A program made the translations under genes and the position numbers. From contig JADHNN010000004.1 in the NCBI GenBank assembly GCA_016779485.1, positions 37,981 to 101,980 on the forward strand: a stretch of 64,000 nucleotides of DNA. The letters are read 5' to 3'. This document shows positions 11,343 to 38,675 of the stretch, one piece after another; the stretch's first letter is position 1, and the number at the start of each line of letters is the position of its first letter. Below the pieces are notes generated by a model. The model was not told the origin of the DNA. It did not search any database and was given only the letters and a program-made list of their open reading frames with translations. This DNA is from Gammaproteobacteria bacterium (GTDB lineage: Bacteria > Pseudomonadota > Gammaproteobacteria > GCA-002705445 > GCA-002716945).

Positions 11343-11741
11343 ATGGAAACAAGGTACGAGAAGCTATACAGAAAACTTGATGTAACCCCTACGAAACAAA
11401 GGGTTGATTTAGCACATTTGATATTTGCTAAAAAACAACATTTTACTGCTACAGATTTAATAAATATAGTAGACAAGAAAAAACTGAATATCTCGATGGC
11501 TACTGTCTACAATACATTATCTCTTTTGGAGGACAAAGGAATGCTGAAGACTATTAATATAGATAACGAAGTGAAATTTTATGATACTAACCTAGAGAAT
11601 CATCACCACCTATACAATACTACGATGAGTACTCTTACAGATATCGCTCATGATAAAGTTGTATTTGCTGAGTTACCAGAATTACCAAAAACATTGGAAA
11701 TTGAAAGTACAGAACTCTTAATAAAAGCTAGGAATAAATAA
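11343..11741 (+). CDS. Fur-family transcriptional regulator, Irr-like
   Basis: TPTKQRVDLAHLIF...MATVYNTLSLLEDKGMLK Fur winged helix; HHHLYN followed by LTDI resembles Irr; no CxxC zinc sites. Confidence 0.85.
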   Translation: METRYEKLYRKLDVTPTKQRVDLAHLIFAKKQHFTATDLINIVDKKKLNISMATVYNTLSLLEDKGMLKTINIDNEVKFYDTNLENHHHLYNTTMSTLTDIAHDKVVFAELPELPKTLEIESTELLIKARNK

Positions 11742-11743
11742 AT

Positions 11744-12325
11744 TCAGTTAGTGTTTAGATCTTTAGATAGGCTATCTTTTGTTGCTTCAGACAGGGCAAC
11801 TTCATCTGTATATTCATCATGAGAAACACCAACTAGTACACGATCATTAGATAAAAAGTCTGTAATATCAGTTTGATCAAGTTCAAATCTTAAAAAATGT
11901 ACCGCTGATGTTTTGTTATCAGTACTTCTTTCAAGGTCTTCATCTGCTAGAGCGACTATTTTCTTAGACCCGCAATTTAGATAAATGTTATTTTCAATAT
12001 CATGTAATTTAGATAACATTATTTTTCTTTCTTCAACATCAGGATACATTATAAGCATCGTTGCCTTAAAGTTTGTTCCATCCGGTATCAATGGGTTATA
12101 AGCATCAATCTCTTCTTGAATCTCTTTTTTATTAAATATCTTCTCTATCCTGAGCATTTCTTGGACCTGATATTTAATTGTAGAATAATCCTCAAAAATA
12201 AGAACAATATGCTCCCCAATAGATACAGTTCTATTTTTTTTATGAATAATTAATGCTTTTTTTATAGCATCTCTTTCATTATCATACTCTTCGAGAGATA
12301 GGAGATCTGATGTTTTTAGCTTCAT
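11744..12325 (-). CDS. DUF3501 family protein
   Basis: GEHIVLIFEDYSTIKYQVQEMLRIEKIF and EIDAYNPLIPDGTNFKATMLI match DUF3501; co-located with Fe-S protein and rubrerythrin. Confidence 0.9.
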   Translation of the reverse strand: MKLKTSDLLSLEEYDNERDAIKKALIIHKKNRTVSIGEHIVLIFEDYSTIKYQVQEMLRIEKIFNKKEIQEEIDAYNPLIPDGTNFKATMLIMYPDVEERKIMLSKLHDIENNIYLNCGSKKIVALADEDLERSTDNKTSAVHFLRFELDQTDITDFLSNDRVLVGVSHDEYTDEVALSEATKDSLSKDLNTN

Positions 12326-13650
12326 TGTTTTATTCCGTATGCTTTTTTAATTAATGTAATTGGATGTTGTGGAGCTTTTAAATTACCTAGAGAATTTTCA
12401 ATGTGGTGAGCTGCTAAAGAGCAGTCACTTGTAAAACTATCAAACGAGGAAGCTTTGAATTCTCTAGTAATTGGCCTGGCAATTTTAATGGCTATTTCAT
12501 GTGTTTCGGCTTTTACCCCATAAGTTCCATCATGCCCAGAACATTTTTCAATTGCGTTTATTTTTGTTCCAGGAACAAGTTCAAGGACTTTCTTTGTTAA
12601 CATTCCCATATTTTGCACTCTCTGATGACAGGCCACTTGATAAGACACATCACCAAGTTTATTTCTAAAATCTTTTTTTAGTTTTCCTTGATCATTTATG
12701 AAATTGAGAAATTCAAATGGGTCTCTAAAAGCTTGTGAAACAACTGCCAGATCTTTATTGTCAGGGAACAGTAACGGTAATTCCTGTTTGTACATCAAGA
12801 CACACGATGGAATAGGTGCAATTATGACATAGCCTTGGTCAACATATTTTTTAAATCCAGGTAGGTTCTTCATCATCATCTTTTCAACTAGCTTGATATC
12901 TCCAAGCTCAAGCTTTGGCATACCACAGCAGTTATCATCAGAAATTATATCAACTGTAATATTGTTATGTTTTAGTATGTCATAAAAATCTTCTATAACA
13001 CCTGGCTCATTATAGTTATGATAACATGTTGTAAAAATAGCAACCTTGAGATTAGGATCTCCATTGTATCTTTGTAGACCAAGCTTCTTTGCTGTTTTAG
13101 ACACAAAATTCGGTAATTTAGCGTTGATATGGATACCAAAAAATTTACTAAGAAATTTTCTAAATATTTTTATATTATTAAAAAAATTTACTATTGGTGC
13201 AACTAGCGCTCTAGAGAAAATTTTACCTAAATTATCTGTTGATGTAAGCACTTTATCTCTAAATGAATTTTTATTGTTTGCATTCTTTATTGCCTTACCT
13301 CTTAACATAAGATGTGGAAAGTCAATTTCCCATTCGTGTGGAGGTACATAAGGGCATTTGGTCATAAAACATAAATCGCACAGATAACAGTGATCGATCA
13401 CAGAGCTAAATTCATCATATTTAACACCATCAACTTCAAATGTTTTTGATTCATCAATGAGATCGAATAAGGTTGGGAACGAATTACACAAGCTTACACA
13501 CCTTCTACAGCCATGACACGCATCTGCTACTCTTCTTAATTCTTCTTCAAACTTTTCCTCATTAAGAAAATCAGGATTATTCCAATCAATGATATGGCGA
13601 GTAGGTTTTTCTAATCCACCCTCACCTTTAGGCATCTGTCCTGTGCTCAT
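12322..13650 (-). CDS. GlpC/HdrD-like (Fe-S)-binding protein, heterodisulfide reductase-related
   Basis: CHGCRRCVSLC and CYLCDLCFMTKCPYVPP ferredoxin-type clusters; CCG-type motifs DDNCCGMPKLELG and EKCSGHDGTYG. Confidence 0.92.
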   Translation of the reverse strand: MSTGQMPKGEGGLEKPTRHIIDWNNPDFLNEEKFEEELRRVADACHGCRRCVSLCNSFPTLFDLIDESKTFEVDGVKYDEFSSVIDHCYLCDLCFMTKCPYVPPHEWEIDFPHLMLRGKAIKNANNKNSFRDKVLTSTDNLGKIFSRALVAPIVNFFNNIKIFRKFLSKFFGIHINAKLPNFVSKTAKKLGLQRYNGDPNLKVAIFTTCYHNYNEPGVIEDFYDILKHNNITVDIISDDNCCGMPKLELGDIKLVEKMMMKNLPGFKKYVDQGYVIIAPIPSCVLMYKQELPLLFPDNKDLAVVSQAFRDPFEFLNFINDQGKLKKDFRNKLGDVSYQVACHQRVQNMGMLTKKVLELVPGTKINAIEKCSGHDGTYGVKAETHEIAIKIARPITREFKASSFDSFTSDCSLAAHHIENSLGNLKAPQHPITLIKKAYGIKQ

Positions 13651-13679
13651 ATTCTTTCTCTTTTTTTGTAAAATAATTC

Positions 13680-13706
13680 GTGGACGTTTTTTATAAAAAC
13701 GCCCAC
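13680..13706 (-). other. intra-operon stem-loop (12-bp stem, 3-nt loop) between rubrerythrin and the Fe-S gene
   Basis: Minus strand GTGGGCGTTTTT-ATA-AAAAACGTCCAC, one G-U pair. Confidence 0.75.
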
Positions 13707-13718
13707 AACTTGTCTAAA

Positions 13719-14138
13719 TTAAGATATTGACTCTAATGCTTTTGTAAAACGGTTTGCATGAGATCTTTCAGCTTTAGCTAAAGTCTCAAACCAATCTGCA
13801 ATTTCGTCATGACCTTCATCTCTTGCAGTTTTTGCCATCCCAGGATACATATCTGTGTATTCATGAGTTTCCCCTGCAATAGCTGCTTTGAGATTAAGAA
13901 CACTGTCACCGATAGGTTCGCCAGTAGCTGGATCGCCGCATTCTTTTTCTAGGTACTCTAAATGACCGTGAGCATGCCCAGTCTCACCCTCTGCTGTTGA
14001 ACGAAATACTGTAGCAATATCATTTTGACCTTCTACATCTGCTTTTGCTGCAAAATAAAGATATCTTCTATTTGCTTGAGACTCCCCTGCAAACGCATCT
14101 TTGAGATTTTGTTCTGTTTTTGAACCTTTTAAACTCAT
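13719..14138 (-). CDS. rubrerythrin family protein (ferritin-like di-iron domain only, no rubredoxin domain)
   Basis: NLKDAFAGESQANRRYLYFA, AEGETGHAHGHLEYL, AGETHEYTDMYPGMAKTARDEGH, AKAERSHANRF di-iron ligands; no C-terminal CxxC. Confidence 0.94.
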   Translation of the reverse strand: MSLKGSKTEQNLKDAFAGESQANRRYLYFAAKADVEGQNDIATVFRSTAEGETGHAHGHLEYLEKECGDPATGEPIGDSVLNLKAAIAGETHEYTDMYPGMAKTARDEGHDEIADWFETLAKAERSHANRFTKALESIS

Positions 14139-14157: not shown

Positions 14158-14176
14158 ATTTAGAATGATTCTAAAT
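14158..14176. promoter_or_regulatory. perfect 19-bp palindrome, candidate Irr/ICE-type operator
   Basis: ATTTAGAAT-G-ATTCTAAAT; 20 bp upstream of the rubrerythrin start codon. Confidence 0.75.
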
Positions 14177-14222: not shown

Positions 14223-14241
14223 GATAATGATTCTTGTTATC
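14223..14241. promoter_or_regulatory. Fur-box-like imperfect palindrome
   Basis: GATAATGATTCTTGTTATC, 15/19 identical to GATAATGATAATCATTATC. Confidence 0.4.
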
Positions 14242-14255
14242 TTTTGAGAGAGACT

Positions 14256-15266
14256 TTGGACGATATATTTTTTCAACTGTATAAAAAAATTGCTTTTCTG
14301 GGTGACCCTGAAAAGGTGCATGATATTTCACTACCCATTCTAGAATTTATCTATAAAAGTTATTTAGGAAAGGTACTGCACAAAAAAATCATTAGTAAAA
14401 AAACTAAACAACTGAATATTGATTTTGATAATCCATTAGGTTTGGCTGCAGGCTTTGATAAAAATGCTGACTACTTAAATTTTATATCAAATGTAGGTTT
14501 TGGTTATGTAGAAGTAGGAACCCTAACGCCAAAACCTCAAGCAGGAAACCCTAAACCAAGAATCTTTAGACTCATAAAAGATGAGGCGATAATTAATCAC
14601 TTAGGTTTTAACAATAAAGGAATTGACTACGCAATAAATAAAATTAAAAAGTTTAATCGCAACATACCGATAGGTATTAATATAGGTAAAAACGCATATA
14701 CGCAAATAAAAGATGCATTTAGAGATTATGAATATTGTTTAAGAAAGTCATATGCTATCGCAGATTATATTACCTTGAATATTTCTTCACCAAATACAAA
14801 AGGCCTAAGACAGCTTCAATCTGGACAAAATATAAATGAATTTATTCGCTCTATAAAGGGATTGCATGATAACTTAAAAAAAGTTTATAAGAAACATACG
14901 CCGTTAGTTATAAAAATTGCACCTGATATTTCCATTGAAGATATTGGTGGAATCATAGATTTAATAAATTCGTATGATGTGGACGGCATAATCTGTACCA
15001 ACACCACCATAGATAAGTCATCAATAGATGAATCCTATAAAAATTTACAAGGAGGTTTAAGTGGTAGACCTTTATACAAACAATCAAATAATATACTCAA
15101 AGAAGTGTGTCGTCAGATGTCCAAAGATAAAACTGTCATAGGTGTAGGTGGAGTGGATTCTCCGCAAGCTGCAAAAGAAAAAATAAATCTTGGAGCTAAT
15201 CTAATTCAAATATACACAGGATTAGTTTTTAAAGGGCCAGGATTAATTGAGAGTATCCTGCGTTAA
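14256..15266 (+). CDS. pyrD: dihydroorotate dehydrogenase (quinone)
   Basis: DNPLGLAAGFDKNADYLNF, VEVGTLTPKPQAGNPKPR, NISSPNTKGLRQLQ; probable TTG start at 14256 after GAGAGAG, ORF also open from TTG 14244. Confidence 0.93.
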   Translation: MDDIFFQLYKKIAFLGDPEKVHDISLPILEFIYKSYLGKVLHKKIISKKTKQLNIDFDNPLGLAAGFDKNADYLNFISNVGFGYVEVGTLTPKPQAGNPKPRIFRLIKDEAIINHLGFNNKGIDYAINKIKKFNRNIPIGINIGKNAYTQIKDAFRDYEYCLRKSYAIADYITLNISSPNTKGLRQLQSGQNINEFIRSIKGLHDNLKKVYKKHTPLVIKIAPDISIEDIGGIIDLINSYDVDGIICTNTTIDKSSIDESYKNLQGGLSGRPLYKQSNNILKEVCRQMSKDKTVIGVGGVDSPQAAKEKINLGANLIQIYTGLVFKGPGLIESILR

Positions 15267-38334: not shown

Positions 38335-38675
38335 TATTTTTCCTTTTTGTCACTTACAACTATCGTAATATGACTTGTTCGTTTCAAAATCTGATTTACT
38401 CTTCCTCTAGCTCTAGGTCTGTGTCTTTTGCCATATGGCCCCTCATCAACAAGGACATTTTTTACAATTAATTCGTCTATATCAGCTGAATTATTATGTT
38501 CAGCATTAGCGACAGCTGATTCTAAAACTTTTAGAATCAATTGGGAAGCTTTCTTATTACTATAATTCAAAAATTCAAATGCTTTGTTTACTGTTAAACC
38601 TCTTACGGCATCAGCAACAAGTCTGCACTTTTGAGCAGAAATTTTTTGATATTTTAAAATCGCCTGAGTATTCAT
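38334..38675 (-). CDS. rplV: 50S ribosomal protein L22
   Basis: [41 protein letters not shown]. Confidence 0.97.

Follow-up and report, generated by a model that had tools for sequence, protein, structure and literature searches.

A perfect palindrome over a rubrerythrin promoter as predicted operator of an Irr/PerR-branch regulator in Gammaproteobacteria

The perfect palindrome ATTTAGAATGATTCTAAAT found upstream of a gammaproteobacterial rubrerythrin gene is probably the operator of a Fur-family repressor of the Irr/PerR branch, encoded at 11343-11741 of the window (the whole stretch of 64,000 nucleotides that was analysed). This repressor would occlude the rubrerythrin promoter, would be released by peroxide and would also control ftsH. 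Behind this reading stand computed results on the conservation of the operator, its overlap with the promoter, its coupling to the regulator and its set of targets. Because the pair of site and regulator recurs across much of Gammaproteobacteria, it appears to be a widespread circuit and not an oddity of one genome.

The first gene 3' of the palindrome encodes an aerobic-type rubrerythrin of 139 residues, devoid of a C-terminal rubredoxin domain (13719-14138, minus strand; Pfam Rubrerythrin, 4.7e-29). It is followed on the same strand by the genes of an Fe-S oxidoreductase, RFO (12322-13650; Pfam CCG, 1.1e-12), and of a DUF3501 protein (11744-12325; Pfam DUF3501, 2.2e-64). The identical three genes form the aerobic-type cluster described by Cardenas in 2016 (PMC5114695), and its combination of a rubrerythrin without rubredoxin domain, an RFO and a DUF3501 protein is found here at 11744-14138, in the same arrangement; Irr, PerR, the promoter and a binding site are all unmentioned in that paper. 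Convergent with this operon, the proposed ligand of the operator is an Irr/PerR-type regulator of 132 residues (11343-11741, plus strand; Pfam FUR, 1.5e-19), proposed on its NCBIfam Irr score, its place in a tree and its co-occurrence with the operator; its own promoter carries no such operator site in the window. The divergent neighbour, in conserved synteny, is pyrD, encoding a quinone-dependent dihydroorotate dehydrogenase (14244-15266, plus strand; TIGR01036, 1.2e-113). A terminator-like hairpin picked up by consensus scan only (13678-13708, minus strand) occupies the gap between the rubrerythrin and Fe-S oxidoreductase genes; it suggests that rubrerythrin is expressed more than the later genes of the operon, and it could make the RFO and DUF3501 genes read-through genes.

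The palindrome extends over 14158-14176, with 9-bp arms around a central G, and contains the 7-1-7 inverted-repeat core TTAGAAT-G-ATTCTAA at 14160-14174. On the minus strand, TTGACA-N17-TAGAAT is the top promoter match of the region (11 of 12 positions), with the -35 hexamer TTGACA at 14196-14191 and the -10 hexamer TAGAAT at 14173-14168, 17 nt apart, the latter lying within the operator. Both the palindrome and this placement of the -10 hexamer were thus confirmed as originally predicted. Since the distance from -10 to start is usually 6-8 nt, the transcription start of rubrerythrin is likewise expected inside the palindrome.

Under a first-order Markov model, the 19-mer is expected 0.00005 times per window and 0.0008 times per 0.91-Mb genome. 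A 9-bp-arm palindrome is by itself not remarkable: the window holds five with a loop of at most 3, against about 1.8 expected per shuffled 64 kb. When up to 2-3 mismatches are allowed, TTTAGAA-N3-TTCTAAA as a loose pattern is no commoner than background: the window has 18 matches for 21 expected, and the genome 40 for 58 with the reversed control. The signal is confined to the strict site, scans at 2-3 mismatches returning pure background. The case therefore rests on conservation, as such palindromes are not rare and the loose pattern does not exceed background. An Rfam scan of the region found no element. Three 17-mer sites of this genome with one mismatch (C2:100784, C8:10256 and C8:25127) were dropped because the 7-1-7 core is not kept. 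A second perfect palindrome of the window, TGATTCTAAAACTTTTAGAATCA at 38517-38539, has everted TTCTAAA/TTTAGAA arms and not the 7-1-7 operator form.

Rubrerythrin upstream regions were gathered from relatives, including 20 family members whose gene is intact. In all 20, TTAGAATSATTCTAA is invariant, while the flanks have diverged and the spacing from operator to start codon varies from about 40 to 85 bp. Every one of these genomes also has, 16-17 nt away, a -35 hexamer that matches at 5 or more of 6 positions, compared with 2% in shuffles. In one relative (G015), the operon is reduced to a rubrerythrin fragment, with operator and regulator retained. In another (G007, C5:61957-62351), the regulator gene is broken by an in-frame TGA or a frameshift, with operator and rubrerythrin intact, which reflects either a sequencing error or a recent loss. 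G001 and G016 seem to have lost both regulator and rubrerythrin, but since the neighbouring pyrD is absent as well, a gap in the assembly is the likeliest cause.

This genome has two copies of the 15-bp core, one in the promoter of rubrerythrin and one in that of ftsH. The original prediction had treated a background frequency of the motif, away from promoters, as evidence against the site: this frequency is indeed what the loose pattern displays, but the two strict 15-mers both lie in promoters. For ftsH, the site was inspected in 17 genomes from four genera of the family, this one included, and most of them carry TTGAC about 17 nt upstream of TAGAAT, in the same layout of -35, -10 and operator. 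The operator is also found upstream of a peroxiredoxin gene in six genomes of another genus and upstream of iscR in one relative (G005). The relative G010 (C4:43243) has no rubrerythrin; where others show pyrD - operator - rubrerythrin-RFO-DUF3501 - regulator, it shows pyrD - operator - katG - regulator, a peroxidase gene having been swapped in under a retained operator. In the relatives G001, G019 and G015, but not in this genome or most others, proteorhodopsin genes are preceded by an Irr-type site that deviates at one or two positions; proteorhodopsin is not claimed as a target, a good site being confined to isolated genomes.

The search was extended to 232 genomes across Gammaproteobacteria, in a taxonomy that includes Betaproteobacteria, for rubrerythrin and, by profile, for the regulator, whose matches (at most 1e-28) are separated by a clear gap from those of Fur and Zur (at least 1e-17). 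The regulator is present in 99 of the 232. Among 124 rubrerythrin upstream regions, combining class sample and family set, 92 contain TTAG[AG]-N5-[TC]CTAA, a pattern met in 0.16% of dinucleotide-preserving shuffles, and the class consensus of the site is ATTTAGACTnAGTCTAAAT. In the rubrerythrin-bearing genomes of the class sample, regulator and site occur together in 69 and are both missing in 22; eight have the regulator without the site and six the site without the regulator. This gives a Fisher P of 5e-11, uncorrected for kinship in a sample spanning nearly 200 genera. Five of the eight genomes with regulator and no site have weaker matrix matches, and the six in which the search found no regulator are mostly drafts. 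Among regulator-bearing genomes, G083 and G057 have no clear site upstream of rubrerythrin, and the site of G077 contains an extra central base. Where rubrerythrin or its site is missing, the strict site occurs anywhere in only 3 of 25 regulator-bearing genomes. In G103 (C7:95867), which has the regulator and no rubrerythrin, the operator stands directly at the pyrD start. An Irr-type site and regulator had been deemed unexpected in Gammaproteobacteria, a view not supported, given the frequency of the regulator and the way the site tracks it.

The top-scoring curated family for the regulator is NCBIfam Irr (109.8 bits, E 9.2e-32), below the curated cut-off of 170 bits, which is passed by 15 genomes of the phylum outside Gammaproteobacteria. 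In a tree of 87 proteins, built on few columns and with long branches for PerRA and some further rows, Irr, the gammaproteobacterial proteins and Leptospira PerRA split from Fur/Zur at 96/93. The split between the gammaproteobacterial regulators and the 17 rows of alphaproteobacterial Irr stands at 97/87 and puts the former beside the Irr clade and not inside it, which argues for a sister lineage of Irr; on this tree, a horizontal import from within alphaproteobacterial Irr was rejected. The regulator carries an HXH motif (NHHHLYNTT), and its alignment contains no CxxC zinc site or Cys pair. The GCPWH-type N-terminal heme regulatory motif, present in only some Irr, is absent from all family sequences. 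H33, D81, H87, H89 and D100 are invariant in 18 aligned homologues. Among solved structures, the nearest in sequence is 5nl9, the Leptospira PerR; modelling the regulator from its sequence alone gave a structure of poor quality (pLDDT 60), which was left unused. By hand alignment to the list of PMC10294975, the five residues match the PerR ligands H37, D85, H91, H93 and D104. The prediction of an Irr-like neighbouring regulator thus holds for its top score and its grouping with Irr away from Fur/Zur, but not for Irr proper, considering the score under the cut-off, the sister position and the peroxide-defence targets.

The operator itself corresponds to the Irr box: in alphaproteobacterial genomes with true Irr, an identical motif stands at mbfA, bfr, dps and iscR. 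Exact TTTAGAANNNTTCTAAA sites occur in 9 of the 15 alphaproteobacteria with Irr over the cut-off, and in none of the two sub-cut-off or seven no-match alphaproteobacterial genomes, nor with the reversed control. They lie upstream of genes for MbfA (rubrerythrin and VIT1 domains), bacterioferritin, Dps and an Rrf2/IscR-type protein, the identities of bacterioferritin, Dps and IscR being assigned by eye from sequence. The proposed likeness to TTTAGAA-N3-TTCTAAA therefore stands in letters and spacing at known Irr targets, and an Irr-type site with an Irr-like regulator is a well-supported reading of these sequences. The iron control element (ICE, or Irr box) shares with the operator the letters TTAGAA-N3-TTCTAA and the 7-1-7 spacing, and alphaproteobacterial Irr is, as here, a Fur-family regulator without CxxC, with a ferritin- or rubrerythrin-like target and a site near the start. 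In contrast, the gammaproteobacterial regulator falls outside the Irr clade, lacks GCPWH and has rubrerythrin, ftsH, katG and peroxiredoxin as putative targets, and the half-site of the class consensus has C as sixth letter (TTAGACT). PerR of Bacillus and PerRA of Leptospira have in common with this system the five metal ligands, a 7-1-7 box and peroxide-defence targets. According to PMC10294975, the peroxide-responsive repressor PerRA has no structural metal site, and neither has the regulator here. The operator, with the half-site TTAGAAT, does not match the PerR box TTATAATNATTATAA (PMC545781), its own form being TTAGAATNATTCTAA. In the deltaproteobacterial PerR-like/rubrerythrin circuits predicted by Rodionov in 2004 (PMC545781), a Fur-superfamily regulator also adjoins rubrerythrin and the Geobacter palindrome covers the -10, whereas operator letters and lineages differ.

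In the proposed mechanism, the metal-loaded dimer of the 11343-11741 product would sit on the -10 and start site, blocking rubrerythrin transcription and read-through into the RFO and DUF3501 genes. Once the metal at the PerR-like site (H33, D81, H87, H89, D100) is oxidised or lost, the operator would be freed, so that peroxide would turn on its own scavenger, rubrerythrin, and the same repressor would control ftsH in this genome. Binding by this protein and repression are what we infer, with promoter occlusion as the well-supported mode. As the releasing signal, peroxide is modestly favoured over heme or iron because of the target genes, whereas the family score favours Irr; the conserved ligands, also invoked for peroxide, are common to Irr.

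The most serious alternative keeps the same operator and protein and gives them true Irr physiology, with binding under iron or heme shortage and departure once heme or ferrous iron abounds, so that rubrerythrin, a ferritin-like di-iron protein, would be made only with iron available. Such behaviour is the less likely one, though plausible. Irr, a heme sensor, has the PerR-type metal residues too (PMC7762939). A reported heme site of Irr, the HXH motif, takes the form HHH in the regulator here, and the family score and the tree place the regulator beside Irr. Moreover, the motif-identical alphaproteobacterial sites lie at iron genes, among them the rubrerythrin-like mbfA, controlled by Irr in Bradyrhizobium and Rhodobacter (PMC3413700), and the iscR site of G005 fits the same picture. 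The sub-threshold score and the missing GCPWH-type motif weigh on the other side, together with target swaps that go to katG and peroxiredoxin and not to iron storage, and with the full PerR-type ligand set, though common to Irr.

Binding of the palindrome by another protein, most simply the true Fur (C1:33657-33935), is improbable. Fur boxes are also 7-1-7 AT-rich palindromes, and a Fur-box-like element does exist about 30 bp upstream of the -35, overlapping the pyrD start region (GATAATGATTCTTGTTATC, 14223-14241; 16 of 19 positions identical to GATAATGATAATCATTATC). The eight members of the genus that have rubrerythrin all keep its position and letters, a second genus has a variant, and mostly 0-0.5% of shuffles are equally good; since it is conserved in two genera, it may bring an extra iron input via Fur to rubrerythrin or pyrD. 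However, the operator half-site TTAGAAT is unlike the Fur consensus GATAATGATNATCATTATC (PMC545781), and the operator tracks the Irr-like protein, rubrerythrin genomes with only a weak Fur-level match (e.g., G039) having no site. A chance palindrome, an RNA hairpin or a promoter relic without regulator is more improbable still: palindromes with 9-bp arms arise about twice per 64 kb at this composition, but the core is letter-perfect in 20 genomes, recurs across the class, is coupled to the regulator and has a second copy at ftsH. The conservation data already refute this last explanation.

In the literature searched, whose coverage is partial so that absence is no proof, neither this operator nor Irr-type regulation is described in Gammaproteobacteria; the components are known in kind, and their combination and breadth look undescribed. 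An operator and a likely target set can now be assigned to a Fur-family subgroup found in 99 of 232 sampled Gammaproteobacteria, for which that literature holds no regulon. The assignment also provides a probable switch for the aerobic-type rubrerythrin cluster. The system also offers a testable case of Irr and PerR diverging while the DNA box stayed unchanged. At a little under an even chance, the circuit represents a class-wide regulon run by a sister lineage of Irr that, in Gammaproteobacteria, retained the Irr operator but represses in response to peroxide; its core target would be rubrerythrin, to which some lineages added ftsH, katG or peroxiredoxin, or for which they substituted one of these. 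If this is true, Irr would be an iron- and heme-sensing offshoot of an ancestral peroxide regulator using the same box.
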